The notes below the pieces were generated by a model. It was not told the origin of the DNA. It did not search any database and saw only the letters and a list, made by a program, of their open reading frames with translations. The position numbers and the translations under genes were made by a program. From assembly GCA_018333655.1 (NCBI GenBank), contig JAGXTJ010000018.1:1-41941 (forward strand): DNA of 41,941 nucleotides. The letters run 5' to 3'. This document shows positions 1,626 through 24,805 of the stretch, one piece after another. This DNA comes from Bacillota bacterium (lineage in GTDB: Bacteria; Bacillota; UBA994). Positions within the stretch are counted from its first letter, which is position 1, and the number at the start of each line of letters is the position of its first letter.

Positions 1626-1627
1626 GT

Positions 1628-3917: not shown

Positions 3918-3919
3918 AC

Positions 3920-7121: not shown

Positions 7122-7285
7122 TCACACACCTCTCACATAACTCGCCTCAATGCTATATTTGCTTCATCATATTGACTCGGTCAAAGGGGGGATTTTGTTG
7201 CGTCCAAGCACCAGCAACTAACAAGTGGGACGATCAGGATGAAGCCAATGAATCTGGGCGTCGTCAAAATACCTCTTGCGCATCT

Positions 7286-8611: not shown

Positions 8612-9109
8612 TGACAATTTCCTCCTCCCTTGCGCAAATATCCACACGATCTAATTTTTGACAAACACCTCTTGCCCCCTAAGACAAACGGCTTTACAGT
8701 CACACCCTTTGCAAGACTCTGCTTCTTGTACGGCGGTTCTGCGCGAATCAGATTCTTAGAACCGCGCTTCGACTAGCGAGCTTTCAGAAAGATTGCCCTC
8801 AGCATGAAACTCGCCTGCTAGGTCGCGCTACAGATATTCCAATTGCTGCTTGAGAAAATCGAAAGCAAGTCGTGACTTTGAATGGGTATTAGTATTGCAC
8901 ATAGCCACACCATTTACACTGAGACTCCGGAGCCAATACCCCACTTCCGTAGCACAAAGGCCTCAGCTCGAGTCACCCGCTCGTAGTAGTTGAACAAATT
9001 ATATACCTTCATACATTGCAATGAGCCTCACGTCACCCTCGGTCGCTCCATAAATCCAAAGATGCTAAGTTAGGTGTGACAGGCAATGCTAAATGGCTGA
9101 AGCACGGTC
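8612..9109. other. Gene-free stretch with possible Wzy debris
   Basis: No convincing gene on either strand. On the minus strand next to the pseudogene, short pieces can be read in shifted frames (for example IYGATEGDVRLIAMYEG around 9010-9060) that weakly echo the QYGIVGAW region of the intact Wzy, with several stops between. An imperfect inverted repeat (GCGGTTCT/AGAACCGC) lies near 8733-8767. I see no promoter I would defend. Confidence 0.4.
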
Positions 9110-9870
9110 CTATGCCTGTTTTCGCGAGTAACTCCACCTTCCAAGCATATTCACTGTTCCTTCGAAGGTGCCTTGTTGCAACGCATACGCGAACTCATTT
9201 ACACGCATCGACAACGCCGGGTGTGCTACCGTGTGCCCAAAGTAAGTCAGTCTCCCGTGCAGCGGGAACGCCGAGAAAAGCAGACTGACTACCGCAATCG
9301 ACAAGAGAACAGCTCCTCGCAGTGAGTTCTTGGCGTTAACTACATTCAGAGCGTACGCGACCACCACCAGCAACAGAGCCATGAATAGCCCAGCAGAGCA
9401 TATTGTGCAGAGGAGGAGCGCTACTAGGGCAGCAAACTTACCCCAGGGATGTCTGATGAGATTCATGCGCAGCATGCCAACTATGGGAACTACAACACAT
9501 ACCGATCCGTAAACCAATCCGTAGCTACCGATATGTTGACCAGCAATGCCCTCGACCAGCTCGGCGCGCCCTGTAGCCAAAACTCTAGCTGCCATTGGAT
9601 TATGCGCTAAAAACCGCGCCGTGTTTATCGAAATCCCAGCAATGGTAACTAAAGCTAGAACGATTAGTTGCTTTAGCGCTTACAGATCACCTTGATGAAT
9701 GTAGCATTTAATAAACACACTCGAAAATCCTAGTCGAAAATGATTCATGAGACGAGAGACCTCGGAGCAACGACTAAACCTGACTGTACTAAAGTCATAA
9801 GTGATTGCCTCGTAGAAACTAGACGAACAATCGTCACCCCTGCACCTCTCTCCCAAAATTACACATGGAA
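9110..9870 (-). pseudogene. Decayed paralogue of the adjacent Wzy
   Basis: The translated stretch 9110-9595 aligns along its length with the intact protein at 7286-8611: MAARVLATGRAELVEG against MAARLLSTGIEELTIG, GSYGLVYGSVCVVV against GSYGFIYGLVFVVV, and an NMLGR end against TAGRLG. Upstream the similarity goes on through SRLMNHFRLGFSSVFIK (matching DRVFNYAGIGFFMIFFR), with an in-frame TAA between, and then through IVRLV in a shifted frame up to about 9860. The C-terminal third is lost. This is a duplicated or replaced polymerase in decay, with at least one stop and one frameshift. Confidence 0.8.
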
Positions 9871-9872
9871 TT

Positions 9873-11075
9873 CTAATCCTGCACCTCAGATATCAGTTTT
9901 ACAAGCTTGTCTACTTGAACATTCCATGTTTTTTCACGCAACACATATTCTCTGGCCGCAGTCGCTTTTGCAGCCAAAACATCGGGCGGTAGGGACAAAA
10001 CAAATTCCAAGCCCGCAGTGATAGCGGATACTGAATCATCCTCAAAAACGTACATATGACTGAGATACTCCTCCGTCAATCCATTGAGCTTTGTTGTAAT
10101 AATTGGCGTACCACTCGCCATATACTCAAGGATCTTGGAAGGAAAAGTGACTCTGCTGACTGGGTGGTCTACTAGGCGTGGATTTACAAGCAGAGTCGCA
10201 GCCTGCTGGGCAGTTATCACTTCTGAGTTAGGCTTTACACCCATATAACAAATTCTTAGATCTTCGCTACATGCTTTCTTTACATCAGGAACGAGAGGGC
10301 CATCTCCATACAAATCTAATCTAAATCTAGGGTTCTTAACATTCTTGGCTGCAGACAGCAAAGCGCGTATCCCGTTGTACTCAATGACCGCGCCGCTAAA
10401 AATGACCCGCAGGGCTTTGTTAGTAGAGTGGCCCAAAATATTGCTATCCGAGAGGGGGAAGTCGTTAGGATCGAGGCCCCCTTCTATTCGAACGGAACGC
10501 AATCCGGGCGCATACTCTATTGCCGCTCTGTCGTTTAGCACAACTACCGCAGAGAATTTTTTGATGCTACTCACTGTTGTGGCAGCCTCCAGACGCTGCG
10601 CAACACGGCCAACCAGACTTCTACTCATTACCTCTAAAGGCGGATCAGCTAAAATACAAATTACTTTAAACCCGAAAACTCTTGATGCCCATAGTAGTGG
10701 CAACGCCACGTATGGGTAGGCATTGTAACACAGGGCAATTTTAGGTTCACGCTTGAATTTCCAGCCCCATGCAAGTACCATAAAAAATGCGAAAACAATA
10801 AGGGTAAGTTGTTTTAACAGGAACACATTGATAAATGGGACTATTTTTGACTCCATGTGGCTTGTTAATTTCAATGTGTCAAACCCCATGCCAAGAATTC
10901 TCTCGCGTGGGTATGCTGCAACTGGGTACTCGGTTAGTATATGCAAATTTTGCCCATAGAGTTCAAAGAGTGCTTCCAAAAAACCAAGCTGCATTTTGTT
11001 CCCCGCCACTGATGGTCCGCGATGTCGTGTGCAGTCAACTGTTCTTATGGCACTCCCCAAAAAAAGCACTTTCAA
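9873..11075 (-). CDS. GT4 family glycosyltransferase
   Basis: About 400 residues with two Rossmann halves. The N-terminal half starts KVLFLGSAIRTVDCTRHRG; residues near 90-110 are hydrophobic (LTLIVFAFFMVLAWGW) and may anchor it to the membrane. The C-terminal half shows VIFSGAVIEYNGI, LYGDGPL and FPSKILEYMASGTPIITT, the GT4 nucleotide-sugar site with its conserved acid. It probably adds one sugar to the lipid-linked repeat unit; donor unknown. I prefer a TTG start at 11075 with GAGGTG six bases upstream; a GTG three codons earlier is the alternative. It ends three bases before the region where Wzy remnants begin. Confidence 0.82.
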   Translation of the reverse strand: MKVLFLGSAIRTVDCTRHRGPSVAGNKMQLGFLEALFELYGQNLHILTEYPVAAYPRERILGMGFDTLKLTSHMESKIVPFINVFLLKQLTLIVFAFFMVLAWGWKFKREPKIALCYNAYPYVALPLLWASRVFGFKVICILADPPLEVMSRSLVGRVAQRLEAATTVSSIKKFSAVVVLNDRAAIEYAPGLRSVRIEGGLDPNDFPLSDSNILGHSTNKALRVIFSGAVIEYNGIRALLSAAKNVKNPRFRLDLYGDGPLVPDVKKACSEDLRICYMGVKPNSEVITAQQAATLLVNPRLVDHPVSRVTFPSKILEYMASGTPIITTKLNGLTEEYLSHMYVFEDDSVSAITAGLEFVLSLPPDVLAAKATAAREYVLREKTWNVQVDKLVKLISEVQD

Positions 11076-11099
11076 TTCGGGCACCTCACTTCCATGCGC

Positions 11100-12143
11100 C
11101 TACTTCTTTGGTCGTATTAACGAGCAAATCGCCTTAGCCCAGCTGGCAGCATCGTCGCCGTCACAATAAGTGACACTGCCTTTGTATTGGCCGATTACCT
11201 CTCGATACATTCCCAAGTTGTTGGCAATAATGTGGAGTGAAAAGCTTTGTGCTTCTAGCAGGGGCAGCCCGAAAGTCTCGACTTTGCTCGGGAAAACTAG
11301 GGCGTCTACAGATTGATAGTAATTCATAACTTGCTGGTAACTTAACTTGCCAGTTAAAACGACGTTCTCTTCAAGCTTGAATCCCTTTATGCAAGACCAT
11401 GCTTTAGGGTTGTCGGGATCTAGCGTTAGGTAGAGCACGATTCCTTTCTTGCCAAACTTGTTCACAACTAATTCCATGGCTCGGTATAGAACTTGGTGAT
11501 TTTTATACACAACACCACTTGCAGGATAAAATAGCTTTACCTCTCCCTTGAGGCCGCTCACGCCGCCCAACTCGCCAAGGTCAATTGTACCAATGTCCGG
11601 CCGTTCGACCACTATTTTTTCGTGGCTAACACGGCAACGCTCTGCCACACTACCTCTCATCCATTCAGTCTGAACGATCACTTTATCCGCCTCTGCAACA
11701 CTTTTCTTTATAAGGTGGAAGTAAATGTTGCGATAGAACCACAGCATTCGCTCATCTTTGTTGAAGACGCCCCACTGATAGTCGAAAAACGGGAGGGACT
11801 GATGCACGTATACAGATTTGAACTTGACTCCACTTTTGAAGCCAAAAGGAAAATAGTTTTGCATAGAGAATAACTCGTCAGGCCACAATTTGTTTGCCCT
11901 ACACCAATTTTGCATTCCAAGTAGGTTCCAGTAATCCCTACTTGTATAGTGAGGGTTAGCAGAGTTCTTCACTATCATGACATTGCTCGGGATGTTCACA
12001 CTGTTACAGCTATCGGGAACAAACAAGTAGTACCTACTTGTGCGGTCTGCATTGAGGCTCAACCTTGCAATGTACTGGTTAAGTATAGTGAGCCCTCCGC
12101 CAGAAGCGAGAGATGTAGCATTAACCATAACAATCTTATTCAT
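11100..12143 (-). CDS. GT4 family glycosyltransferase
   Basis: About 347 residues. The N-terminus KIVMVNATSLASGGGLTILN has the glycine-rich acceptor loop typical of GT4 proteins. The middle has VIVQTEWM and VVERPDIG, and the C-terminal half has LFYPASGVVYKNH, VVLTGKLSYQQVMNYY and LVFPSKVETFGLPLLEAQS, the usual donor site with the EX7E-type acid pair. It should transfer one sugar to the growing unit; the donor cannot be told. ATG at 12143 is chosen since GGGGAG stands at good spacing; an in-frame TTG at 12164 would overlap fnlC. It is fairly AT-rich compared with the fnl genes just upstream. Confidence 0.82.
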   Translation of the reverse strand: MNKIVMVNATSLASGGGLTILNQYIARLSLNADRTSRYYLFVPDSCNSVNIPSNVMIVKNSANPHYTSRDYWNLLGMQNWCRANKLWPDELFSMQNYFPFGFKSGVKFKSVYVHQSLPFFDYQWGVFNKDERMLWFYRNIYFHLIKKSVAEADKVIVQTEWMRGSVAERCRVSHEKIVVERPDIGTIDLGELGGVSGLKGEVKLFYPASGVVYKNHQVLYRAMELVVNKFGKKGIVLYLTLDPDNPKAWSCIKGFKLEENVVLTGKLSYQQVMNYYQSVDALVFPSKVETFGLPLLEAQSFSLHIIANNLGMYREVIGQYKGSVTYCDGDDAASWAKAICSLIRPKK

Positions 12144-12160
12144 AGGAGCACGCTCCCCGC

Positions 12161-13294
12161 TCAATCATGAATGTCCCCCCACACCGTCCGGCGAACATAA
12201 TCCGTATACGACAAAATAATCCGCAACACCTTGTCCGACACATTTGGTGCGTCGTAGTCGCGCACTAGGCGTATGGCACCTTTAGGTTGGGTTGCGAGTA
12301 CCGCTAGCCCCTGCAAAATACGCTCTTTGGTGAGCCCCACCATCATGACCGCCGCCTCTTCCATGGCCTCGGGGCGCTCGTGGGCTTGGCGGATGTTTAG
12401 CGCGGGGAAGCCTAGGATGGAGGCTTCTTCGCTGATGGTGCCGCTGTCGCTAAGCACGGCTTTAGCGTGTAGCTGCAGCTTGATGTAGTCATTATACCCT
12501 AGGGGTTTGTGGATGTTGATGTGGGGGTGAAGTTCTAGCCCCTTGGCCTCTAGCCGCTTGCGCGTGCGGGGGTGAGTGCTAAAAATAACGGGCATGTTGT
12601 AAGTTGCGGCAACTGTGTTTAGGCTGTCGATTATATCAGTGAAGTTTACGTCGTTGTCGATGTTTTCTTCACGGTGGGCCGAAACAACGAAGTATTGTTC
12701 GGGCGTGAGGGCTAGGGTGTCTAAGATGCGCGATTTAGCGATGTCGTCACGGCGGGAATTTAGCACTTCGAGCATGGGGCTGCCGGTCTTTATGATGCGG
12801 TCTGGCGGCAGGCCCTCACGCAGCAAGTACTCGCGGGCGATGTCACTGTAGGTGAGGTTTATATCGGCGATGTGGTCGACGATTTTACGGTTGGTTTCTT
12901 CGGGGACGCGCTGGTCGAAACAGCGGTTGCCGGCCTCCATGTGAAAGATGGGGATGCGCTTCTTCTTGGCGGCAATGGCGCAGAGGCAGCTATTGGTGTC
13001 ACCTAGTACAAGGAAGGCGTCTGGTTTTACTTCGTCAAGAACTGGGTCTATCTTGATTAAAATATGGCCGATAGTTTCAATCGCTGTGCCCGTGGCGGCG
13101 TTGAGCATGAAATCCGGACGGCGGAGATTGAAGTCCTTGAAAAAGACTTCGTTAAGCTCGTAGTCATAGTTCTGTCCGGTGTGGACGAGCACATGCTCAA
13201 TGCTGGGCGATGCCTCAAGCTTTTGGATTAGCGCAGAGAGGCGGATTATTTCAGGGCGGGTGCCTACAACAGTCATCACTTTAAGTCTTTTCAT
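12161..13294 (-). CDS. fnlC: UDP-N-acetyl-L-pneumosamine 2-epimerase (FnlC/WbjD type)
   Basis: Final enzyme of the UDP-L-FucNAc pathway; belongs to the WecB 2-epimerase family. Seen: KVMTVVGTRPEIIRLSALI at the N-terminus, HTGQNYDYEL, DTNSCLCAIAAKKKRIPIFH, MEAGNRCFDQRVPEETNR, VVSAHREENID, and LSDSGTISEEA in the C-terminal half; all are WecB-fold signatures. About 377 residues, as expected. The start at 13294 follows the fnlB stop by two bases with AGGTGTGAG as ribosome site. Being downstream of FnlA and FnlB makes the L-FucNAc role much more likely than plain ManNAc synthesis. Confidence 0.92.
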   Translation of the reverse strand: MKRLKVMTVVGTRPEIIRLSALIQKLEASPSIEHVLVHTGQNYDYELNEVFFKDFNLRRPDFMLNAATGTAIETIGHILIKIDPVLDEVKPDAFLVLGDTNSCLCAIAAKKKRIPIFHMEAGNRCFDQRVPEETNRKIVDHIADINLTYSDIAREYLLREGLPPDRIIKTGSPMLEVLNSRRDDIAKSRILDTLALTPEQYFVVSAHREENIDNDVNFTDIIDSLNTVAATYNMPVIFSTHPRTRKRLEAKGLELHPHINIHKPLGYNDYIKLQLHAKAVLSDSGTISEEASILGFPALNIRQAHERPEAMEEAAVMMVGLTKERILQGLAVLATQPKGAIRLVRDYDAPNVSDKVLRIILSYTDYVRRTVWGDIHD

Positions 13295-13296
13295 GC

Positions 13297-14406
13297 TCAC
13301 ACCTGCAAAAAGAATGTATCTGGTCGTTGTGGCTCGAAGGCTTCGCTGGCCCACATCAGGGTGACTAGGTCCGCTTCGCCTATGTTCTCGATGTTATGCG
13401 TGTAGCCAGGGGGGATTTCGACTACCTTTAGTCTTTCGCCGTCGGTAGTAATGGCCACTACGCTGTCACTGCCGACTGCGCGTAGCCTAATTACCCCTTT
13501 GCCGCTCACGACTAAGAACTTTTCGTGCTTGGTGTGGTGCCAGTGATTGCCCTTGGTGATGCCCGGCTTGGCGATGTTTACTGAAAACTGGCCCTGACCC
13601 CTGGTGCGTGCAAATTCGGTGAAGGAACCGCGGGCGTCGGTATGCATATGTAGCTCATACGCCAAGGATTCCTCTGGCAAGTAGCTCAGGTAAGTGGCAT
13701 AGAGTTTTTTGGTGAAGGCATCGTCAAGCGCAGGTATGGCAAGGCTTGCGCGCGCATGGTGAAATGATTGGATGAGGTCGGCCAGTGCCCCGACGGTGGT
13801 GCTGTGTGCCACAGGCAAAGAGGCGAACCGCCCAGTAGGGGTGACTACGCCGCGCAAGGCACGTAAGAATTCGTCTACCACATCATCCACATAAACTAAG
13901 GTGAGATTAGCACTTTGGTCGTTAATAGTGATGGGTTGTGCGCGGGCAATGTTGTGCAAGAATGTCGCCACTACGCTGTTGTAGTTTGGCCGGCACCACT
14001 TGCCAAAGACATTGGGCAAGCGGTACACGAAAACCGGGGCACTTGTCGCGTAGCTGTGAGCGAAGAGCAGGTCTTCGGCAGCTTTTTTGCTCTGCCCATA
14101 GGGGTTGTCTAGCGCTGCTTGCGCAGAGGAGGCAAAGAGAATGGGGCAGCGGTTACCATGTTTGCTTAAACTAGACAGTAAGGTGGCCGTAAAGCCCGCA
14201 TTGCCGGGCATAAAGTCGCCAGCGTCTGGTGGGCGGTTAACCCCAGCGAGGTGAAAGACGAAGGTTGCCTCTTGGCAAAAGGCGGACAACTGCTCGGGCG
14301 TGGTGTCGGCGTCGCACTCGTAAACACTTTCGTATCCTTCATTGTGCAGGGTGGCTACAAGGTTACGCCCTATAAAGCCCTTAGACCCGGTAACAAGTAT
14401 GCTCAA
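13297..14406 (-). CDS. fnlB: Bifunctional C3-epimerase/C4-reductase (FnlB/CapF)
   Basis: Second enzyme of UDP-L-FucNAc synthesis. The N-terminal two-thirds are a short-chain dehydrogenase (ILVTGSKGFIGRNL near residue 5; NPYGQSKKAAE holds YxxxK; YRLPNVFGKW). The C-terminal third is a cupin: HMHTDARGSFTEFARTR, HWHHTKHEKFLVVSGKGVIR and PPGYTHNIENIG, with histidines that bind zinc in CapF. This SDR-plus-cupin layout is diagnostic. The TTG at 14406 overlaps the fnlA stop as TTGA and has GGAGG upstream; a GTG four codons earlier is possible. Confidence 0.92.
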   Translation of the reverse strand: MSILVTGSKGFIGRNLVATLHNEGYESVYECDADTTPEQLSAFCQEATFVFHLAGVNRPPDAGDFMPGNAGFTATLLSSLSKHGNRCPILFASSAQAALDNPYGQSKKAAEDLLFAHSYATSAPVFVYRLPNVFGKWCRPNYNSVVATFLHNIARAQPITINDQSANLTLVYVDDVVDEFLRALRGVVTPTGRFASLPVAHSTTVGALADLIQSFHHARASLAIPALDDAFTKKLYATYLSYLPEESLAYELHMHTDARGSFTEFARTRGQGQFSVNIAKPGITKGNHWHHTKHEKFLVVSGKGVIRLRAVGSDSVVAITTDGERLKVVEIPPGYTHNIENIGEADLVTLMWASEAFEPQRPDTFFLQV

Positions 14407-15425
14407 GCCCGCCTCCACCCTTCTAGTTCGTTACGTACGTATTCTAGGTCTAGTAGCTTGGCTTTGATCTCCTCAACTGACATGCGCGTGGTATTGTGAG
14501 AATTATACTCGGTGCCTAAGGTGAGCCGTTCGTCCCCTTGCACAAAGTACTTGTCGTAGTTCAGGTCGCGCTTATCGGCTGGTACGCGGAAAAACCCGCC
14601 GAGATCTTCGGCTACGGCATATTCCTCTTTGGTAAGTAAGGTTTCGTAGAGCTTTTCACCATGGCGCGTGCCAATGATGCGCAGTTCGTTAGGGGCGACA
14701 AAAAGTTCAAGTAGGGCCTGCGCCAAGTCGCCCACTGTCGCTGCCGGCGACTTTTGCACTAGCGTATCGCCTGCAACGGCATTTGCAAAAGCAAAGAGCA
14801 CTAGGTCTACCGCTTCGGGCAGGCTCATAAGAAAACGCGTCATGTGAGGAGCCGTCACGGTTAGCGGCCGCCCGCTCTTGATTTGCTCGATAAACAAGGG
14901 AATAACTGAGCCGCGCGAGGCCATGACATTGCCATAGCGTGTACAGCAGATGAGCGTGAGTGTAGGGTCTACCGTGCGCGCCTTGGCGACTAGCACTTTT
15001 TCCATCATGGCCTTAGAGATACCCATAGCGTTGATGGGGTAGGCCGCCTTATCCGTAGAGAGGCCGATGACCTTCTTAACGCCCATTTCGACAGCTGCCG
15101 TCAAGACGTTGTCGGTGCCAAGGACATTGGTCTTGACTGCCTCGAGGGGGAAGAACTCACACGAAGGCACCTGTTTTAGCGCAGCGGCATGAAAGACATA
15201 GTCCACACCATGCATGGCGTTTTTGATGCTGCCGATGTCGCGTACATCACCTAGGTAGAACTTAAGCTTGTCGCTTTGGTAGCTACGGCGCATATCGTCT
15301 TGCTTCTTTTCGTCGCGAGAAAAAATCCGAATCTCGCCGATGTCGGTTCGTAGAAAGCGTTCCGCTACAGCGTTCCCGAAGGAGCCTGTACCGCCGGTGA
15401 TTAAGAGGGTGCGGTGTTGGAACAT
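14403..15425 (-). CDS. fnlA: UDP-GlcNAc 4,6-dehydratase/5-epimerase (FnlA/CapE)
   Basis: Starts UDP-L-FucNAc synthesis by converting UDP-GlcNAc to a 4-keto-6-deoxy-L-sugar. The 340-residue soluble form has LLITGGTGSFGNAVAERFL at the N-terminus, FSRDEKKQDDMR, AALKQVPSCEF, STDKAAYPINAMGISKA (Met in place of the usual catalytic Tyr, as in this family), and MTRFLMSLPEAVDLV. Length and absence of TM helices separate it from the long membrane dehydratase at 20889. The ATG at 15425 follows GGAGGTCGC; the reading frame upstream of it merely overlaps the WbuB gene end. The real overlap with that gene is 25 bases. Confidence 0.93.
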   Translation of the reverse strand: MFQHRTLLITGGTGSFGNAVAERFLRTDIGEIRIFSRDEKKQDDMRRSYQSDKLKFYLGDVRDIGSIKNAMHGVDYVFHAAALKQVPSCEFFPLEAVKTNVLGTDNVLTAAVEMGVKKVIGLSTDKAAYPINAMGISKAMMEKVLVAKARTVDPTLTLICCTRYGNVMASRGSVIPLFIEQIKSGRPLTVTAPHMTRFLMSLPEAVDLVLFAFANAVAGDTLVQKSPAATVGDLAQALLELFVAPNELRIIGTRHGEKLYETLLTKEEYAVAEDLGGFFRVPADKRDLNYDKYFVQGDERLTLGTEYNSHNTTRMSVEEIKAKLLDLEYVRNELEGWRRA

Positions 15426-16645
15426 GTGCGACCTCCAGCAAAATGCTTCATGATAATTTCGTAGGAATGCTTGGCTGTGTAGTTGTTTTCTAGATATGCC
15501 CTGCCGGACTGCCCCATCCTGTGGCGTGTCTCTGCGTTGCAGAGCAAGTTCACCTTCTGCATAAAGACACTTACGCTTCGGGATTCGCACCAAAAGCCGA
15601 ACTTACCCCCCTCGATGATCTCACCCAAATCAGTGTGCGGGTCAGTGGCCGCCAATATCGGCAAACTGGCCTGCATATACGTCAGGAGGCGTGAAGGGAA
15701 ATTAGGGACAGTAAAACCTTGATGGAGGAATATAAGACCGACGTCACACGCGGCACAAAGTAGATCGAAATCCTCCGCCGGTAGAAATGGCAGCAGCTTT
15801 GCCGCGCGTGGCTTGGCAAGCTCAAAGTAGCGCTGCAGTTTGGCATACTCAGTACCTGCCCCAACAATAACAAAAAATGCTTGATCGTCATGCTCGTTTT
15901 CTTTGAGGCATTCGATGATAAACTCCACGCCGTGCGGGGCCCCGATGTTGCCTCCGTAGATAAAAATGGGCTTATCGTGCGGTAGGCCATATTTCGTACG
16001 CCAATACTCACGTGCTGCAGCGGTTAGGGTTAAATCTTGTGGTTCTATGCTGTTAGGGCACACCTCGACAAGGTTGGGTGCGATTTTGGGATTCTGTTCG
16101 AGGAGGAACTTGACGTTAGCTGGCGACATACACCCAATGTGGTCAGAGAGGCGGTAGAGCTCATGCTCAGTGGAGCGAAAGTAGCGGTAGGGGAGCCCTA
16201 GCAAGCCGCTTGCACGCATCATCCCCAAATCTACAGCGTTCTGTGGGAAGATGTCCTTTAACAACAGATAAGTCTTTAACCCATCGCGGGCGCGTAAGTA
16301 GCGTATAGTCTGCGTCAGAGTGACGGGTGGCGTTGAATACAACAATACATCAAACTTGATATGTGACAACTTTAAAGCGACTGCCCGCTTAAGCCTTGTG
16401 TCTAGGGTTATCGTGTTCCACGCTTTCCGTATTGCGCCTGTCTTCTGGATACTTCCACTTGGCACTTTTACGATTAAAGCCCGCCCTTCTTCGTGCACTG
16501 TAACACCCGACTGGGCACTAGACGCACTAGGTGACACGACAGCAACAAAATGCCCATTAGCGACAAACTCGCGCATCAAGTCAGGATATATGCCCCGCTC
16601 TTGCAGCGATCGCATATCATACAAAGTAATTAACATTACATTCAT
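15401..16645 (-). CDS. wbuB: WbuB-like GT4, probable L-FucNAc transferase
   Basis: A 414-residue family 4 transferase. Motifs: YDMRSLQERGIYPDLMREF at the start, YSTPPVTLTQTI and LKDIFPQNAVDLGM near residues 105-140, FIYGGNIGAPHG at the start of the donor domain, and NFPSRLLTYMQASLPILAAT for the donor site. This is the WbuB pattern; in several Enterobacteria wbuB directly adjoins fnlABC and adds L-FucNAc. Here it precedes fnlA on the same strand and overlaps it. The ATG at 16645 has GGGAGAGGG upstream. L-FucNAc specificity is inferred from family and gene order. Confidence 0.82.
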   Translation of the reverse strand: MNVMLITLYDMRSLQERGIYPDLMREFVANGHFVAVVSPSASSAQSGVTVHEEGRALIVKVPSGSIQKTGAIRKAWNTITLDTRLKRAVALKLSHIKFDVLLYSTPPVTLTQTIRYLRARDGLKTYLLLKDIFPQNAVDLGMMRASGLLGLPYRYFRSTEHELYRLSDHIGCMSPANVKFLLEQNPKIAPNLVEVCPNSIEPQDLTLTAAAREYWRTKYGLPHDKPIFIYGGNIGAPHGVEFIIECLKENEHDDQAFFVIVGAGTEYAKLQRYFELAKPRAAKLLPFLPAEDFDLLCAACDVGLIFLHQGFTVPNFPSRLLTYMQASLPILAATDPHTDLGEIIEGGKFGFWCESRSVSVFMQKVNLLCNAETRHRMGQSGRAYLENNYTAKHSYEIIMKHFAGGRTCSNTAPS

Positions 16646-16698
16646 TTTTGCCCTCTCCCTCGTCGGCCGCGGTGCATTACCATCGCCACTAACTGACC

Positions 16699-17826
16699 TT
16701 AATCCACTATCGCCATAACTCCCGCGATCACCCTCGCCTGTTCATCTTCAGTTAGGCTTGAGCCTGAAGGCAAGCAGACCCCTTGGGCAAAAAGCTCGGC
16801 GCCGACATCAGTGTGGTGCGGGAAGAAGGGGTAGGCCGAAAAGACTGGCTGCAGGTTCATGGGCTTCCACAGGGGGCGGGCCTCGATGTTCTGCTCCTGC
16901 AGGCACAGGACAATGTCGCGGGGGGTAACTTCGCTTGCGGGGTATATAGTGACGGCGGTCATCCAGTAGTTTGGCTGGCCGTAGGGCATAATGGGCAGAA
17001 GGCGAAGTGGGGTGTTAGCGAAGGCTGCTGCGTATCGCGCAAAGATCTGCTGCCGAGCGGTGATTCTTTCGTGAAGTACGGCTAGCTGCCCCCGCCCGAT
17101 GGCGGCACAGATGTTAGAGAGGCGGTAGTTGTAGCCGTAATCCACATGTTCGTAGTGGAGTGCGGGCTCGCGGGCTTGAGTAGCCCAGTAACGCATTTTA
17201 CGTAGGGCCGCTTCATCGTTTGAGACCACCATGCCGCCGCCCGAGGTGGTGATAATTTTGTTGCCGTTAAACGAAAAAACGCCGAAGTGCCCGAGCGAAC
17301 CGCATTGCTTGCCTTGGTAGGTGGCCCCGAGCGCCTCGGCGGCATCTTGAATGACCGGCACACCATAGTTCTGGCATATAGGTAGAAGCGCTTCGTAGTC
17401 GGCGCTCTGACCATAGAGGTCGACAATTATTGCTGCCTTCGGCAACTTGCCCTGCTCTGCCGCCCAGTGAAAGGCTTCTTCTAGCGCGCGGGGGGACATA
17501 TTCCAGCTGCTTGGCTCGGCATCTATAAACACCGGCGTCGCCTGTTGGTACATAATGGGGTTGCAGCTACCGGCGAAAGTAAGGCTTGAACAAAACACAT
17601 AATCTCCTTGCCCCACACCGAGGTAGCGCAAGATAAGGTGAATGGCGGCCGTACCTGAGGTGAGAGCCAAGCCGTGCGCAGCACCCACGTAGCGACAAAT
17701 CTCTTGCTCAAAAGCGTCGACTTGTGGCCCTAGGGGAGCAATCCAGTTAGAGTCGAATGCCTCTTTGATATACTCCATCTCTAGCCCGCTCATATGAGGA
17801 GGGGAGAGGTAGATGCGTTTACTCAT
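16699..17826 (-). CDS. DegT/DnrJ/EryC1 sugar aminotransferase (PglE-like)
   Basis: A 375-residue PLP enzyme that adds an amino group to a 4-keto-6-deoxy nucleotide sugar. Seen: LSPPHMSGLEMEYIKEAF, SNWIAPLGPQV, ALTSGTAAIHLILRYL, VIQDAAEALGATYQG (acid that contacts the cofactor), SFNGNKIITTSGGG (Lys that binds PLP), and GYNYRLSNICAAIGRGQL. These match aminotransferases that act on UDP-4-keto-GlcNAc, such as PglE and PseC-type enzymes. With the membrane dehydratase at 20889 it would give UDP-4-amino-4,6-dideoxy-GlcNAc. It lies 42 bases downstream of the FemAB-like gene. Start ATG has AAGGGGG upstream. Confidence 0.85.
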   Translation of the reverse strand: MSKRIYLSPPHMSGLEMEYIKEAFDSNWIAPLGPQVDAFEQEICRYVGAAHGLALTSGTAAIHLILRYLGVGQGDYVFCSSLTFAGSCNPIMYQQATPVFIDAEPSSWNMSPRALEEAFHWAAEQGKLPKAAIIVDLYGQSADYEALLPICQNYGVPVIQDAAEALGATYQGKQCGSLGHFGVFSFNGNKIITTSGGGMVVSNDEAALRKMRYWATQAREPALHYEHVDYGYNYRLSNICAAIGRGQLAVLHERITARQQIFARYAAAFANTPLRLLPIMPYGQPNYWMTAVTIYPASEVTPRDIVLCLQEQNIEARPLWKPMNLQPVFSAYPFFPHHTDVGAELFAQGVCLPSGSSLTEDEQARVIAGVMAIVD

Positions 17827-17868
17827 AAATGCCCCCTTAAATTAGTGCGCCTTACTGGATTGAAGTCG

Positions 17869-18933
17869 CTAAGAGCGATAACTTGGAAAGAAGTCGTGAT
17901 TTATGGGCTGAGAATACTTTTCACGGGCGCATACTAACTCGGCAAACACTTTCTCATCCAATATCCGTTTGCCCACCTTAAAATCGATGCAGCCTTTCGG
18001 GGCAAAACTATGTTTGTATTGAAAAATCCCGTCTTCTCCACAATAACCCCCGCCAAGTACATATTGTTCGCGGGCTGTATACTGCCCCCATCGAATAATC
18101 TCGTACTTTAATAGATCATTGGGCCGGTATCTATAATAGCTCTCGTCTGTACCCCCCAGAAAGGAGTAGATCGTTTTTTCGGAGAGCAGTACTAGCTCCG
18201 TGGAAACAACTTTACCCTCTACTATGGCATAGAAAAACTTCAAGTTGTCTGCCAGAGTGTGCTGCATCTGCGAAAAAAACCTTGCGTCAAAATGGTAGCG
18301 TGAGTCTGCGGATCGTCGTGCCATTGTGCTAGTATAAATGCTAATGAAGTGTTCGAGTCTTGAGCCTTCGTCGTATACCACTTCAACTCCGAGCTCCCGT
18401 GCACGATTCACGTTCTTCCGTACCTTATGATCAAACTCCATCCAAACATCAATGCCCGTGTCTAATCGCCTGACAACATTTCGCCCTCTGACTTCAATTT
18501 CTCCTGGATAGCCAGCATTGTCATGTCCACCCAATGGAAAGCGCACAAATTCGGAGACCACTTTATGGGACATCATCCATTCAGTTAGGCCTTGCCAAAA
18601 TGCGCTAACGCTCTGGCTAGAAGGCTGTCCCCCTAGCAAAATGGGGCCGCCATATCCGTATGGCGATACTACGTCCCAAGAATGTCCAAGGTGGGCGGGA
18701 GTGAACTTCTCTATATGCAAAGGCCTTAATACAAAAGGATATATCACTGAGCCAGAATCAGAAATACAAAGTGCGCACATTACCCTATCACTTGGTCTTG
18801 CGAAAAGACTCGCGTAGCCAGGCAGGTGCATCGGTTCATTCGAAAACCTGCTGCGCACAACTTCTTGCCAAATTCTCTCGTCACTACAGGTGTTGTTGTT
18901 TAGAATTACTCCCCACGCGTAAGTTTCCATCAT
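17869..18933 (-). CDS. FemAB/BioF2-like GNAT acyltransferase
   Basis: A 354-residue protein of the FemAB-like double-GNAT superfamily (Acetyltransf_6 type). Supporting pieces: PLHIEKFTPAHLGHSWDVVSP-like N-terminal part, VRKNVNRARELGVEV near residues 170-185 (the typical KxRRNxRKA-like helix), IYTSTMARRSADSRYHF, and the second GNAT half LKFFYAIVEGKVVSTELVLL with YSFLGGTDESYYRYRPNDLL. Members attach amino acids to peptidoglycan precursors or acyl groups to glycans. Its place beside a DegT aminotransferase suggests it modifies the new amino group of the sugar. GAGGAG precedes the ATG. Substrate is unknown. Confidence 0.7.
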   Translation of the reverse strand: MMETYAWGVILNNNTCSDERIWQEVVRSRFSNEPMHLPGYASLFARPSDRVMCALCISDSGSVIYPFVLRPLHIEKFTPAHLGHSWDVVSPYGYGGPILLGGQPSSQSVSAFWQGLTEWMMSHKVVSEFVRFPLGGHDNAGYPGEIEVRGRNVVRRLDTGIDVWMEFDHKVRKNVNRARELGVEVVYDEGSRLEHFISIYTSTMARRSADSRYHFDARFFSQMQHTLADNLKFFYAIVEGKVVSTELVLLSEKTIYSFLGGTDESYYRYRPNDLLKYEIIRWGQYTAREQYVLGGGYCGEDGIFQYKHSFAPKGCIDFKVGKRILDEKVFAELVCAREKYSQPINHDFFPSYRS

Positions 18934-19117
18934 ACTACTCCTCTAAGGTCCCTCTCTTAACAATCAACATACGCCCTGCAACACAGAACAGCAACAAAGC
19001 AGATCCCTACTGGCGTTACATAAACTAAGTCAACTACTCTACACTATTAGCAAATTTGTTGAGACGAGTCGCAATACTACCCTTGCAGACAAGGATGTGC
19101 TTTGTCCAGCTCTAGTG

Positions 19118-19651
19118 TCAGCCACTTACCCAACAACAATTAATCAGCGCATCTATGAGGTCGGGGTAGTAAGATTTATCCTCATCTGGATGAACTGGCA
19201 AGTTTAAAATAGAACGCGACAAAGCAAGTGCTTCTGCATGACGAATATTTCGCAAAGGTGGGATGGAAGACTTTGTGCCAAGAAAAAAAGTTATCTCTGA
19301 CAGATTAACTGCCCGACGATAGAATGAAAGAACCCCATGCGCATTATCGTCAGTACGAACCGCTCGATGCTGCTTTACCAAGTCGAGGACTCAGAGATCT
19401 CTCGCATCAGTAAATCCAAAGTAATTAACTAACATAACGGCACGGTGACCTTGATCGCACCCTACAAGGAGTGATTCGAGACTGGAAATGTCCACTTCTA
19501 ATTCTTCCGTCCTTCGATAAAATCCTGTGCGAAGTGAGGGTTCTTGAGAAACTGGATCCAACATGCCATTCCCTTCGCGCGCGGACCAGCCCATAAGCCA
19601 GGGAGATTTAACCATTAATGCCGCGATACTGCACCAAGTAAAAGGGCACAT
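19118..19651 (-). pseudogene. Broken DegT/DnrJ/EryC1 aminotransferase
   Basis: One frame runs through both parts with a single internal TGA at 19391-19393. Before it: FYRRTEELEVDISSLESLL and AVMLVNYFGF; after it: VKQHRAVRTDDNAHGVLSFY (cofactor-contact acid) and FFLGTKSSIPP, where the Lys fits the PLP lysine, and then a jump to a C-terminal piece AEALALSRSILNLPVHPDED. The middle of the usual fold is missing, and so is the N-terminal part. It differs in subtype from the intact enzyme at 16699 (FYR and YFGF forms), so it is not a recent copy. It sits between the FemAB-like and GNAT genes, suggesting a lost pathway variant. Confidence 0.7.
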
Positions 19652-19737
19652 CTACAAGGGCAACTAGTGCTTTGTCGCAATGCACCACTTAAGACTATGC
19701 CAACTAGAATTTGGTCTTCCCTTAAGAATCTTAATTA

Positions 19738-20193
19738 TCATTTAGACAAAACCTTGAGCATCTTGTAGCGCTCCACGTAATATCCCCCCTTCTGGTAGCA
19801 GCGTACAGCACGATCATTACAAGCGTTTACCATCAACTCAAGCTCACATATGTTACGCAAAACTGCTATATGCTCTATTGCATGCATAAGCTCAGTCGCA
19901 ACACCCTGCCCCCGAAAATCAGATTTAACGCCTATCATGTTAATGTGGATACGTTTATGATCAAAATTATCAACTTCATACCCCCACAAAATGCCGACAA
20001 GTTGACCTCTATCAAAAGCTCCAAACAGTATCGCGGTACCATTCTGCAAGAAAACAATCAACTTATCATAGTAGGCCCCAGCAAAGTCACCTTCAATATC
20101 CGAGAAATTTGCGGTTAGTATTTCAGACAAAAGGGCACGTACTTCAAACTCATTCGCCGCTACTTCCTCTTCGTTTATCTGTTTTATGTCCAC
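19738..20193 (-). CDS. GNAT family N-acetyltransferase
   Basis: A 151-residue single GNAT domain. The acetyl-CoA loop reads IGVKSDFRGQGVATELMHAI near residues 88-107, followed by LELMVNACNDRAVRCYQKGGY, the usual last strand and helix with the Tyr that can act as acid. Lying between the initiating transferase and sugar aminotransferase genes, it may N-acetylate a UDP-4-amino sugar, a job done in other species by PglD (a different fold) or WecD (GNAT). That is inference. GTG start with AGGGGAGGGG upstream; the gene is AT-rich. The 86 bases between its stop and the broken aminotransferase hold no gene. Confidence 0.72.
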   Translation of the reverse strand: MDIKQINEEEVAANEFEVRALLSEILTANFSDIEGDFAGAYYDKLIVFLQNGTAILFGAFDRGQLVGILWGYEVDNFDHKRIHINMIGVKSDFRGQGVATELMHAIEHIAVLRNICELELMVNACNDRAVRCYQKGGYYVERYKMLKVLSK

Positions 20194-20213: not shown

Positions 20214-20825
20214 CTATCGCTCTATGTCTAAGTCCTTGAAGTCTAAATTAGAAGCACACTCCGTGACATCTTTGCGTGAGACTACTCGTGCAACTGTGCT
20301 TAGCAATATTTTACAATCCAGCACAAAGGAAAGATTGTCCACATAACGCACATCGAGAACAAAACGCTGTGCCCATGGCAGATTATTCCGTCCGCTAACT
20401 TGAGCCAAACCTGTGACGCCTGGCCTAACAGTATGACGGCGCCTTTCGTGTTCGGAAAAATGGGGCAAGTACTTCACGAGCAATGGTCTTGGTCCCACTA
20501 ACGACATATCGCCCTTCACTACATTCCAGAGTTCCGGTAGCTCATCCAAACTTGTGGAACGTAACAACCGACCGAAAGAGGTAAGTCGCTCTGAATCAGG
20601 CAATAGCTGACCACGCGAATCACGAGCAGAGGTCATAGTCCGGAACTTATACATGTTGAATATTTTCTCATTCAGCCCAGGCCGCGGCTGCACAAACAAT
20701 ATGGGACTGCCGAGCTTTAGCCGCACAAGTAGCGCCACAAGCGCCATGAGTGGTGAAAACAATGCGATCGCAGTAATCGCTATCGAAAAATCAAAACACC
20801 TCTTCAAATATCGCCTATACATCAT
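20214..20825 (-). CDS. Initiating phosphoglycosyl transferase (PglC-type)
   Basis: Transfers a sugar-1-phosphate from UDP-sugar to undecaprenyl phosphate, the first membrane step of repeat-unit assembly. The short form (203 residues) has a positively charged start YRRYLKRCFDF, one re-entrant hydrophobic helix (about residues 14-36), RPGLNEKIFNMYKFRTM, the catalytic Asp-Glu pair in TSLDELPELWNVV, and GDMSLVGPRPLL, then RPGVTGLAQVSGRN. No extra N-terminal TM domain, so it is PglC-like rather than WbaP-like. PglC enzymes often use diNAcBac, which agrees with the dehydratase, aminotransferase and acetyltransferase nearby. Confidence 0.9.
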   Translation of the reverse strand: MMYRRYLKRCFDFSIAITAIALFSPLMALVALLVRLKLGSPILFVQPRPGLNEKIFNMYKFRTMTSARDSRGQLLPDSERLTSFGRLLRSTSLDELPELWNVVKGDMSLVGPRPLLVKYLPHFSEHERRRHTVRPGVTGLAQVSGRNNLPWAQRFVLDVRYVDNLSFVLDCKILLSTVARVVSRKDVTECASNLDFKDLDIER

Positions 20826-20888: not shown

Positions 20889-22772
20889 TCAATCAATCCC
20901 CACAACCGCGCAATGTTCCAGTGGCCCGCCCCCCACACCCGCCGCCACTTCGTCGAGGGCTTTAGGGGTAAGTAAGTGTTCTAGCGCGCAGACATCAAAG
21001 CCTTTGCCTGCGGCGCAGAGCTCCCTCAGCTCGCTGAGGCAGGAGGCTAGGGCGATGGCGCAATGGTGGTTTTGCCGTGCCACCATGATCTGCTTATGCT
21101 GCGTGGCAGCCACGCCTTCTTCGGCCGTCAGTAGTTCTTCGTACAACTTCTCCCCTGGGCGTAGCCCAGTAATAGCTATCTCTATGTCTTGGCCTAGCTT
21201 CAGGCCTGAGAGAGTGACTAAGTCCTTCGCCAAGTCCATAATCTTTACTGGGGCGCCCATGTCGAGCACGAATACTTCGCCGCCTTGGCCCATGGAGCCG
21301 GCTTGGATGATGAGGCTGACGGCCTCGGGGATGGTCATAAAGTAGCGGGTCATTTCGGGGTGGGTGACGGTGACGGGGCCGCCGCGGGCGATTTGCTCTT
21401 TGAAGCGGGGCACGACACTGCCGCGGCTGCCGAGCACATTGCCAAAGCGCACGGCCATAAACTTGGTGGTGTTTGGTCCGTTCATGCCTTGAATGAGGAG
21501 TTCGGCAATACGCTTGGTGGCACCCATGACGGAGGTGGGATTAACGGCCTTGTCGGTGGAGACGAGCACGAAGCGTTCGGCTTGGTGGCGCGAGGCCGCC
21601 TCGGCCATGATACGGGTGCCGAAGACATTGTTCTTGATGGCTTCGGTCGGGTTTTGCTCCATAAGGGGCACATGCTTGTGGGCGGCGGCGTGAAAGACGA
21701 CCTGGGGTTTGTGCGCGGACAGTAGGTGGTCGATGCGCTGGGCGTCTTGTACGTCGGCTATTAGTGGGGTGATTTTAAGAAAGGGGAAGCTATGCACTAG
21801 CTCTTTATGTACTTCGTAGATGCTGTTTTCGCCACGCCCGAGGAGTAAGAGGTGAGACGGGGTGAAGCAGGCTACTTGGCGACTGAGCTCAGCGCCGATA
21901 GAGCCACCTGCGCCGGTGATGAGCACTGCTTTGCCGCGGAGGTAGGAAGCAATGCCGGTGTAGTCGGTTTTAATTTCGGGCCGCGGGAGCAAGTCTTCTA
22001 TTTGTACTTCGCGGATGGTGCTGACATCGATGCAGTTTTGGATGATGCTGTACAGCCCGGGCACGGTACGCGGCTTAATGCCAAGTGCCGTGCAGCGCTG
22101 AAAGAGCTCGCGTATGCGGCCTGCGGGGGCAGAGGGAGTAGCGATAATGACTTGCGAAATGGCGTGTGAGGACACGATCTGCTCTAGCAAGGACATGGGG
22201 CCGAGGACGGGAATGTTGTCGATACTTAAGCCGATTTTGCCTTTGTCGTCATCAAGAAAGCCTACTACTTGGCTGTCTATTTCGGGGTGTTTGGCCAGCT
22301 CTTTAACTGTGATGCGACCGGCGTCGCCTGCGCCTAGGATGAGGGTTTTTTTGCGGCCCGTTACACGGGGCCTCTTTTTGTAGGCGGCGAGCAACCGCAC
22401 CATGAAGCGCATACCCCCTACCGCGGCTACGTTACCAAAGGCGGACATCACTATGACGCTGCGCGGAAAGTTAAGGCTTGGGTTTACGTACATAAAGCCG
22501 AAGAGCGCGGTTGTGGCGAGGGTAACGGTGCCCGCGATAGTGACGAGGTCTTCGGCCGAGGCGTAGCGCCAGAGGCGGCTGTAGAGGCCGAAGTAGTAGT
22601 AGATTACGATGTAGAGCGGGACGGCGACGACCATGTAACGCAGCCAGGTGTAGATAAAGATGGCGTCGGGCCGAAAATCAAAGCGGAGGTAGAGCCCGAG
22701 AACGCCGGAAACTACGAGGGCCAGGGCGTCGCCTGTAGCGAGAAGAAACTTGTATTTTACACTAGCTGACAT
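20889..22772 (-). CDS. Membrane UDP-GlcNAc 4,6-dehydratase (PglF/CapD type)
   Basis: A 627-residue protein: four TM helices in the first 120 residues (AL-rich LRFDF start, WLRYMVVAVPLYIVIYYYF), a nucleotide-binding domain with TLILGAGDAGRITVKEL near residue 145, then a dehydratase domain with VLITGAGGSIGAELSRQV, HAAAHKHVPLME, STDKAVNPTSVMGATKR (Met for the usual Tyr) and MTRYFMTIPEAVSLI. Long members dehydrate UDP-GlcNAc with retention at C5 and feed diNAcBac or FucNAc4N synthesis. It is followed by the PglC-type transferase. The high GC and the AGGTGA ribosome site look like the core genes of the window. Confidence 0.9.
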   Translation of the reverse strand: MSASVKYKFLLATGDALALVVSGVLGLYLRFDFRPDAIFIYTWLRYMVVAVPLYIVIYYYFGLYSRLWRYASAEDLVTIAGTVTLATTALFGFMYVNPSLNFPRSVIVMSAFGNVAAVGGMRFMVRLLAAYKKRPRVTGRKKTLILGAGDAGRITVKELAKHPEIDSQVVGFLDDDKGKIGLSIDNIPVLGPMSLLEQIVSSHAISQVIIATPSAPAGRIRELFQRCTALGIKPRTVPGLYSIIQNCIDVSTIREVQIEDLLPRPEIKTDYTGIASYLRGKAVLITGAGGSIGAELSRQVACFTPSHLLLLGRGENSIYEVHKELVHSFPFLKITPLIADVQDAQRIDHLLSAHKPQVVFHAAAHKHVPLMEQNPTEAIKNNVFGTRIMAEAASRHQAERFVLVSTDKAVNPTSVMGATKRIAELLIQGMNGPNTTKFMAVRFGNVLGSRGSVVPRFKEQIARGGPVTVTHPEMTRYFMTIPEAVSLIIQAGSMGQGGEVFVLDMGAPVKIMDLAKDLVTLSGLKLGQDIEIAITGLRPGEKLYEELLTAEEGVAATQHKQIMVARQNHHCAIALASCLSELRELCAAGKGFDVCALEHLLTPKALDEVAAGVGGGPLEHCAVVGID

Positions 22773-22816: not shown

Positions 22817-23512
22817 CTAGGACTTCGTCCTGCGGCTGCCATAGTAGTAGTAATAGTAATCGTCCTGCGAGTCGCCTTCGACACCATTTAGTACCACCCC
22901 AAGGATGTTGGCCTTGACACTGGCTAGCTGGGCCTTGGCCTTGTTAGCCATTTCTTTGCTTACTTCACCCACGGCAACCACCAAAATAACCCCATCCACC
23001 ATGGAAGAAAGTATGGCTGAGTCGGTTACGGCTAGGGTGGGCGGGCCATCGATAATGATGATGTCAAAGTCTTTTTTAAAGGAATCCAGCAAGTCGCGCA
23101 TGCGGCCACTACCAATAATTTCTGAGGGGTTAGGCGGTATGGGGCCGGAACTGACTACCTTGAGGTTTGGCACACCGACGTCGCGCACGGCGATCTGCGT
23201 AGCTACATTTTGCATTAGCAGGTTGGTGAGCCCGAGTGGGTTGCTTGTTTTGAATACTTTGTGCTGGGAGGGCCGGCGCAAGTCGCCGTCTATAATGAGC
23301 ACCTTGCTACCAGTTTGTGCAAAGGCGATGGCCAGATTGGCGGCGGTGGTGGACTTGCCCTCGGCTGGAGCCGTGGAGGTGATTAAAATAGTCTTGACGG
23401 GTTTGTCGAGCGAGGAAAACTGGATATTAGTGCGCAGTACGCGGTAGGACTCGGCCACCCGCGAAGAAAGGTCGCTCGTTATGAGCTGGTGGTTTTTCAT
23501 TTTGTGCTTCAT
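22817..23512 (-). CDS. BY-kinase, CpsD/CapB family
   Basis: Bacterial tyrosine autokinase that works with the Wzz-like partner to set polysaccharide synthesis. The 231-residue ATPase has Walker A TSTAPAEGKSTTAANLA near residue 45, Walker A' VLIIDGDLRRPSQHK, Walker B DIIIIDGPPTLAVTD, and a C-terminal tail with six tyrosines in a row after DSQDD, the site of autophosphorylation. The start overlaps the partner gene as ATGA. The matching PHP-type phosphatase (CpsB/YwqE) is not present in the window. Confidence 0.92.
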   Translation of the reverse strand: MKHKMKNHQLITSDLSSRVAESYRVLRTNIQFSSLDKPVKTILITSTAPAEGKSTTAANLAIAFAQTGSKVLIIDGDLRRPSQHKVFKTSNPLGLTNLLMQNVATQIAVRDVGVPNLKVVSSGPIPPNPSEIIGSGRMRDLLDSFKKDFDIIIIDGPPTLAVTDSAILSSMVDGVILVVAVGEVSKEMANKAKAQLASVKANILGVVLNGVEGDSQDDYYYYYYGSRRTKS

Positions 23513-24243
23513 TTTGACGCCCCCACTTGCTCGCTCGCAAAGTCGTTTGCCTTAAATAGAGGTATGGTGCCGAGCAGGGGCAAGCCGAGGTGCTCTTGCA
23601 CATCTTCTGGCTTTTTAAAGGTGTTATCTAAGTAACTTAGGACAAAAGCAGCCCCAAGCCCAGCCATACCGCCCGCAAAACCCGCGACCACCATGGTGAG
23701 GAGTTTGCGCGGACTGATTGGTAATTCTGGCACGGTGGCAGTGTCTATAACTGTTACGTTCTCGGCATTCATGATGCGCAGGGTGTTGCTACGAAACGAC
23801 ATGGCCACCGCGTTGGCTAGGCGGGCCGCAAAATATGGGTCTTCGTTTTCGACTGTTATAGCGATAATTTCGGTGTCTCCACGCAGCGTTACGTCGACCA
23901 TGCTGCTAAGGTCGTCCGTGCTGATGTCTAGCCGCAGCAAATCGATAACCTCGCGAGCTACGGTGCGGCTACGGGCGATTTCGCGGTAGGTGCGAACTAA
24001 GAGGCGGCTGGCTAGGAGGTCGGAATGCACAACTTGGCCGGTGGTCTGGGCCGATGAACGCGCCCCAACGATGAGGGTGGTCTCGGCGCGGAAGATGGGC
24101 GGTAAAATGAAAAACACGGAGATGCCGGCAATTACAACGGCTACAGTGGGGACGATGAGTATTACCATTATGTACTTGCGGATGATGGAAAATACTTGCC
24201 TGAGGTCTAGTGTTACTTCGTCGTCAAATTCACGTCTCTCCAT
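23509..24243 (-). CDS. Wzz/CpsC-like polysaccharide co-polymerase
   Basis: A 244-residue membrane adaptor with a TM helix at about residues 26-50 (IMVILIVPTVAVVIAGIS), an outer loop with FRAETTLIVGARSS and a Pro-rich end VPELPISPRKLL, and a second TM near 185-207 (VVAGFAGGMAGLGAAF). The short cytosolic tail (KKPEDVQEHLGLPLLG) should stimulate the BY-kinase downstream. It regulates chain length or export of the polymer. It is the first gene after the SigH-like promoter; GAGAGGGG precedes the ATG. Confidence 0.92.
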   Translation of the reverse strand: MERREFDDEVTLDLRQVFSIIRKYIMVILIVPTVAVVIAGISVFFILPPIFRAETTLIVGARSSAQTTGQVVHSDLLASRLLVRTYREIARSRTVAREVIDLLRLDISTDDLSSMVDVTLRGDTEIIAITVENEDPYFAARLANAVAMSFRSNTLRIMNAENVTVIDTATVPELPISPRKLLTMVVAGFAGGMAGLGAAFVLSYLDNTFKKPEDVQEHLGLPLLGTIPLFKANDFASEQVGASK

Positions 24244-24278: not shown

Positions 24279-24308
24279 ATCTTCGACAAATAAGATAGGA
24301 ATCCTGCC
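24279..24308 (-). promoter_or_regulatory. SigH-type promoter of the polysaccharide operon
   Basis: On the minus strand the sequence reads GGCAGGATTC, 11 bases, then GTCGAAGAT. The B. subtilis SigH consensus is RNAGGAWWW, 11-12 bases, RNNGAATWW, so the match is close with one clear mismatch (G for T after GAA) and a C in the AT-rich part of the -35. Expected transcript start is near 24272, about 29 bases before the Wzz-like ATG. The -10 also contains a TGTCGAA and so may double as a Spo0A site. Confidence 0.7.
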
Positions 24309-24315
24309 CTTATTT

Positions 24316-24343
24316 TTCGACAAGATTCGACAATCTTCGACAA
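24316..24343 (-). promoter_or_regulatory. Three tandem Spo0A boxes at 10-bp pitch
   Basis: On the minus strand TTGTCGAA occurs three times in exact 10-base steps (box cores at 24336-24342, 24326-24332 and 24316-24322 of the window). TGTCGAA is the 0A box bound by Spo0A, and tandem 10-bp spacing is how a Spo0A dimer sits on DNA. Relative to the predicted start they lie about 44 to 71 bases upstream, a usual activator position. A fourth box lies in the -10 of the promoter. Confidence 0.72.
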
Positions 24344-24456: not shown

Positions 24457-24503
24457 TATCTTATCTCTTGCTTCTTATTTCTTCTTTTCCTTGCTTCTTA
24501 TCT

Positions 24504-24576
24504 CTTGCCTCTTGCCTCTTGCCTCTTGCCTCTTGCCTCTTAAATCATGCTTCTATTTTCTTGCCTCTTGCCTCTT
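24504..24576. repeat. CTTGCCT heptamer array downstream of tRNA-Val
   Basis: Five uninterrupted copies of CTTGCCT (24504-24538), then a gap, then two more (24560-24573) ending five bases from the tRNA CCA end. Flanking bases (24462-24503) are imperfect variants such as CTTGCTTCTTAT. On the transcribed strand the unit is AGGCAAG, a polypurine-rich RNA. Slippage could expand such an array. Function unknown. Confidence 0.85.
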
Positions 24577-24579
24577 GAA

Positions 24580-24660: not shown

Positions 24661-24805
24661 CGCTCTCTTTACTTCTTCTCGTGCCTCTTACTTCTCTTAT
24701 CCAACTTCTAACTTCTTGCCTCTTATTTCTTGCCTCTAACTTCTTGCCTCTTACTTCTCTTATCCAACTTCTTGCTTCTTATTTCTTGCCTCTTGTCTCT
24801 TGAAA
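24661..24805. repeat. Pyrimidine-rich tRNA spacer with heptamers and direct repeat
   Basis: The whole spacer between tRNA-CAU and tRNA-Val is built of CTT/CCT words on the plus strand. It holds several TTCTTGCCTCT units and a direct repeat of about 27 bases that starts GCCTCTTACTTCTC, once near 24683 and again near 24745. No gene is visible. The transcript would be an unstructured purine-rich linker to be trimmed during tRNA maturation. Confidence 0.7.

Follow-up and report, generated by a model that had tools for sequence, protein, structure and literature searches.

Is a polysaccharide operon of this spore-forming Bacillota bacterium controlled directly by the sporulation regulator Spo0A? 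The question is raised by the DNA in front of a wzz-like gene in the window (the whole stretch of 41,941 nucleotides analysed here), where an initial annotation described a triple Spo0A (0A) box followed by a SigH promoter. The reading that we prefer, and hold to be reasonably probable, is that positions 24418-24250 form a two-promoter region like that of B. subtilis spo0A, in which Spo0A~P would hand the operon from sigma-A to sigma-H.

The triple box at 10-bp pitch was confirmed on the minus strand, and both its bases and its coordinates had been given correctly. It reads TTGTCGAA-GA-TTGTCGAA-TC-TTGTCGAA (24343-24316), in exact 10-bp steps, with box 1 at 24343-24336, box 2 at 24333-24326 and box 3 at 24323-24316, the last ending 8 bp from the sigma-H -35 element. 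The box centres lie at about -67, -57 and -47 from the inferred sigma-H start, and that of box 1 at about +43 from the sigma-A start. All three 8-mers are identical, each being the 0A consensus plus one base (core TGTCGAA), and the dinucleotides between and after the copies vary (GA, TC, AA). An origin of the array by tandem duplication alone was rejected, as the copies differ solely in the dinucleotides between the 8-mers.

The array is also rare. About one TTGTCGAA is expected in the 41.9-kb window, which has four, all within these 62 bp, and four copies anywhere were reached in 2 of 100 shuffles of the window. The wzz region is the sole site of the exact double box TTGTCGAANNTTGTCGAA in the 2.2-Mb genome. 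The exact triple, for which about 2e-8 occurrences per genome are expected if equal base frequencies are assumed, has no second site in the same genome and none in 398 sampled genomes of the phylum. When up to two mismatches are allowed, a triple is found in eight of 399 phylum genomes (reversed control pattern: 0), four of the eight being from one genus, with the triple before a zinc-ribbon protein gene. The triples of G016 and G051 (TTGTCTAA-TTGTCTAA-TTGTCGAA) look like another element and were set aside.

A fourth TTGTCGAA (24289-24282, minus strand) coincides with the sigma-H -10 element, which brings the number of box copies between -39 and -100 of wzz to four; a direct Spo0A target is expected to have one or more such boxes within about 100 bp of the gene. 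The additional box annotated on the -10 is present, but it adds no independent support, GTCGAA being what sites of the sigma-H motif in this genome usually have as their -10; it may be a 0A box or merely that -10. TGTCGAA is likewise found at the -10 of other sigma-H-class sites (L099, L101).

The sigma-H-type promoter itself, GGCAGGATTC-11-GTCGAAGAT (24308-24279, minus strand; -35 at 24308-24299, -10 at 24287-24279), is present as annotated and has a predicted start near 24272. It scores 20 of 22 weighted points against the consensus RnAGGAwWW, 11-12 bp, RnnGAATwW (p=0.01). By consensus alone the call is weak, the window having seven sites with up to two mismatches against 3.85 expected; since such matches are not rare, the wzz site needs further support, which is provided by a genome-wide motif class, by spo0A and by the corresponding sites of relatives. 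The pattern GGCAGGA-N13..16-GNCGAA, picked after the wzz and spo0A sites were known, gives nine matches in the genome against one in the control, and all nine are 5' of genes. One of these genes is spo0A, which carries GGCAGGAATACTATATTGCCTTGGCGAAATC and is preceded by GGCAGGAATA-12-GGCGAAATC, of the same sigma-H class as the wzz site. With a motif trained without the wzz sites, the wzz promoter reaches 17.5 bits (p=0.0025, the floor of 400 shuffles). Judged from sequence, GGCAGGA...GNCGAA is the sigma-H promoter of this genome. The motif GGCAGGAWT-N11/12-GNCGAA (L098-L106) also stands before genes of five kinds as read by eye: DnaD-like replication, lactate permease, Asp23/DAK, dicarboxylate carrier and EF-G-like.

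Upstream of the boxes lies a second promoter that the initial annotation overlooked. It is of sigma-A type, TTGACA-18-TATCAT with TG before the -10 (24418-24389, minus strand), matches 11 of 12 consensus positions and has a predicted start near 24382, so that the boxes also fall at about +40 to +67 in its leader and could repress. Further upstream, the intrinsic terminator of a tRNA (Asn-Met-Val) unit (24457-24435, minus strand; 10-bp stem, 3-nt loop, T tract) separates that unit from the polysaccharide operon, while on the other side the ribosome-binding site GAGAGGGG (24257-24250, minus strand) leads to the wzz ATG at 24243. By sequence, the region follows the spo0A-type two-promoter order of sigma-A promoter, 0A boxes and sigma-H promoter. 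A structured leader RNA was rejected, the folding being ordinary (z = -1.3) and the Rfam matches being tRNAs alone. The place next to rpoD and the tRNA genes was likewise rejected as a conserved element: G002 and G004 have all three tRNA genes behind rpoD, other relatives have Asn-Met there, and neither the box array nor wzz was seen after the rpoD-tRNA genes of relatives as far as their contigs reach. Between the tRNA genes of the window, 24459-24577 and 24682-24802 consist of degenerate 7-bp/14-bp tandem repeats (CTTGCCT type), and different short repeats follow the tRNA-Met of G002 and G006.

The operon behind this region had been annotated as Wzy-type, and its first genes are those of a BY-kinase-type polysaccharide operon. 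All on the minus strand, they encode a Wzz/CapA/EpsA-type chain-length determinant (23509-24243; PF02706 1e-12, GNVR; TIGR01006 8.6e-49, yet below the curated cut-off), a BY-kinase, that is a CapB/EpsB-like tyrosine autokinase (22817-23512; TIGR01007 5e-70, above cut-off), a CapD-like nucleotide-sugar dehydratase/epimerase (20889-22772; PF02719 1e-121) and an initiating sugar-phosphate transferase (20214-20825; PF02397 6e-62). The remaining cluster (724-20193, minus strand) runs down to the contig end and comprises glycosyltransferases, UDP-GlcNAc 2-epimerase, DegT aminotransferase, CDP-glucose genes and a GalU-like gene, the last assigned from reading the translation. The Wzy assignment stands as a candidate, a polytopic protein with no family match (7286-8647), and no Wzx was recognised before the contig end. 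Next to the candidate, the frame at 9110-9595 (minus strand) is truncated and shares 37% identity with the middle of that protein; it resembles what is left of a polymerase gene after duplication or replacement. Around 19118-19651 (minus strand), some 800 bp between FemAB-like and GNAT genes hold two open frames whose translations resemble fragments of a DegT-type aminotransferase; the gene is probably broken. The genes at 2571-5775 (minus strand), glucose-1-phosphate cytidylyltransferase, CDP-glucose 4,6-dehydratase and RfbH (733 bits), make up the CDP-3,6-dideoxyhexose pathway, which is best known from Gram-negative O antigens and occurs here in a spo0A-bearing genome.

Both candidate regulators named in the initial annotation are encoded in the genome. 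Spo0A (TIGR02875, 368 bits), whose gene lies directly behind spoIVB (PF05580), has kept a recognition helix nearly identical to that of B. subtilis over SRVERAIRHAIEVAW, and SigH was found with 364 bits. Spo0A sites elsewhere in the genome are plausible: a degenerate triple array, GTGTAGAA-TT-ATGTCGAA-AT-TTGTAGAG, stands just before an AbrB-family gene, between the likely promoter and the gene, and the dnaA region has 0A boxes, with a similar sequence there in relative G004. The upstream region of the organism's own spo0A gene has its sigma-H promoter and no perfect 0A boxes. SinI was not found in the genome, and the indirect B. subtilis route through SinI is thus probably absent here. A near-perfect double 0A box (one mismatch) occurs at C30:13397-13414 (L003), about 100 bp before a gene for a small, possibly secreted protein that is followed by an ABC transporter ATPase gene. 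Two 0A-like double boxes (C55:86821 and C55:88549; L044, L066) precede signalling genes 1.7 kb apart, one SBP/HD-domain-like and the other PAS/GGDEF-like by eye.

How much of the control region is shared was asked of five relatives (G001, G002, G003, G005 and G006; two congeners and three other family members), in which 180 to 500 bp upstream of wzz are readable and Wzz is 61-66% identical to the query. The initial annotation had counted a lack of the boxes in close relatives against its own claim, and this is what was found: 0A boxes are absent before all five wzz orthologues (0/5), at a Wzz identity of merely 61-66%, and conservation of the array before wzz was rejected for these five closest orthologues. 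No such array was found at other polysaccharide genes of the five either. The best sigma-H match of G006, G003, G005 and G001, in contrast, lies at the same distance from wzz, -64 to -67 (about -65). Scored with the motif trained without wzz sites, and with p values uncorrected for the number of genomes, the G006 site reaches 16.6 bits (p=0.0025, the floor of the test), while the corresponding sites of G003, G005 and G001 give weaker matches (p about 0.04), G003 and G005 being near copies of each other; before wzz of G002 no sigma-H-like site was found. As a sigma-H-like match recurs before wzz in relatives that have no boxes there, this site seems to predate the array, which at wzz would have been added in this species alone. 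Four 0A-type boxes, scattered, lie upstream of wzz in G018, and G064, the one other genome of that family, has an identical Wzz. Distant Wzz relatives (L010-L013) were too remote and were left out, and viral contigs yielded no relative.

A comparable array does occur at another polysaccharide locus. A search of ten genomes for box pairs revealed in G007 an independent, degenerate triple array, ATGTCGAG-GC-TTGTCGAA-AT-CTGTCGCA, likewise at 10-bp pitch. It lies between the likely promoter and a CapD-like gene, 76 bp before the latter, and this gene opens an ABC-type (Wzm/Wzt) polysaccharide operon. No match to the Wzz studied here was found in G007. For an array of this quality, wherever it may lie, the expectation is about 0.002 to 0.016 per genome, and the two cases suggest a recurrent recruitment of arrays to polysaccharide operons. 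In G347, G213, G306 and G163, which are of one genus, a conserved triple 0A array (L071-L074) precedes a gene for a zinc-ribbon membrane protein, and in two of them the 3-kb stretch in question also takes in the end of rpoD. An element TTCGACA-gcaag-TGTCGAA-NNN-TATCGAA (L108, L112) is conserved between two genera (G002, G003), about 100 bp before the gene of a secreted protein of unknown function.

How might these parts work together? The boxes, both promoters, the regulators, the motif class common to wzz and the organism's own spo0A, and the sigma-H-like site of relatives are all observed; from here we infer Spo0A binding, the use of both promoters, the sign of regulation and its physiological timing. 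The polysaccharide operon would be transcribed vegetatively from the sigma-A promoter (24418-24389). Spo0A~P would then bind co-operatively to the three consensus boxes, which are on one face of the DNA (24343-24316), and their agreement with the consensus predicts high affinity, with occupation early, at low Spo0A~P. Once bound, Spo0A~P would block elongation from the sigma-A promoter and stimulate RNA polymerase with sigma-H at 24308-24279, the promoter 8 bp further down. As cells go into stationary phase, biofilm growth or sporulation, the operon would thus come under Spo0A~P/sigma-H control. The geometry suits both effects: for activation, the box centres stand at about -47, -57 and -67 relative to the inferred sigma-H start, and for a roadblock the boxes lie at about +40 to +67 relative to that of sigma-A. 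The stationary-phase or sporulation timing of the operon is plausible. Against this reading weigh the absence of the boxes before wzz of the five relatives and of any array at their other polysaccharide genes, the sigma-H-like site that is missing in G002 and weak in G001, G003 and G005, the spo0A gene without the boxes, and the choice of the nine-site pattern with the wzz and spo0A sites already known.

The alternative that survives best, although we think it unlikely, is net repression, in which boxes in the sigma-A leader act as a roadblock as at abrB, the sigma-H promoter would be blocked as well by the box on its -10, and Spo0A~P would turn off synthesis of the polysaccharide. In favour of it, the boxes lie 40-67 bp downstream of a strong sigma-A promoter, the B. 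subtilis spo0A model gives the 0A1-3 group a repressive role, abrB provides an example of a roadblock, and the arrays of the AbrB-family gene and of G007 likewise sit between likely promoter and gene. Against repression, the sigma-H-like site kept before wzz in box-less relatives suggests stationary-phase expression, and the array ends 8 bp above the sigma-H -35, a usual position of an activator. Less likely still, the promoter could be sigma-H-dependent and the triple box no working Spo0A site, being either a tandem duplication that arose by chance or a site at which some other regulator binds; at wzz the array is confined to this species and short tandem repeats abound nearby, but TTGTCGAA is the 0A consensus (core TGTCGAA) extended by one base, the copies differ solely between the 8-mers, and a similar array precedes the G007 polysaccharide operon, with triples before other genes and no control matches. 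Finally, it is very improbable that box 3 supplies TTGTCG as the -35 of a long-spacer SigA promoter of the spoIIG/spoIIE type at which Spo0A activates sigma-A polymerase, a lengthened-spacer arrangement known from spoIIG: TTGTCG-20-TATCTT can be read (TATCTT at 24297-24292), but each hexamer is merely a 4/6 match, and these bases are explained as well by the sigma-H motif, which relatives have in the corresponding position.

The handover from sigma-A to sigma-H that we favour has its closest parallel in B. subtilis spo0A, where the order is Pv(sigA), 0A1-3, Ps(sigH) and 0A4, the last overlapping the Ps -10, and where 0A1 represses Pv, 0A3 activates Ps and the effect of the group is net repressive (PMC12090719). 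The order of parts is the same here, including the 0A box on the sigma-H -10. Unlike in B. subtilis, the region drives a polysaccharide operon, its boxes are contiguous, perfect 10-bp tandem copies, and the organism's own spo0A gene has a sigma-H promoter without perfect boxes. In spoIIA of B. subtilis, Spo0A sites lie directly upstream of the sigma-H -35, as they do here, but the spoIIA sites are near-consensus, whereas the three boxes of the wzz region are perfect, which predicts early, low-threshold occupancy. The abrB promoter shares the position of 0A boxes downstream of a vegetative promoter; their role there is repression, whereas here a sigma-H promoter comes after the boxes. If the reading is true, the perfect three-box array would offer a clean natural test of tandem Spo0A binding on two promoters at once.

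Like the operon studied here, epsA-O of B. subtilis is of the chain-length protein/BY-kinase type, and the BY-kinase of the operon studied here is separate, as in epsAB/capAB. Control of epsA-O by Spo0A is indirect, through SinI-SinR-SlrR (PMC10134886). Here, by contrast, the operon has the boxes in its own promoter, and no SinI was found. The SinI-SinR-SlrR relay is a step in the choice of B. subtilis between matrix and spores, and a direct Spo0A/sigma-H link without a recognisable SinI, if true, would show a further route by which a coat or matrix of polysaccharide can be linked with sporulation. We tentatively extend this to the family, whose polysaccharide operons may, on a view that we advance as a possibility short of even chances, be wired directly and repeatedly to the sporulation switch, with a sigma-H base to which arrays were gained independently at different operons, once copying the spo0A two-promoter plan and bypassing the SinI/SinR relay. 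In the literature searched, which was covered in part, we found no description of a capsule or EPS operon that carries direct Spo0A boxes. The parts are all known ones; their direct wiring to a polysaccharide operon, with a spo0A-like control region, appears to be unusual.
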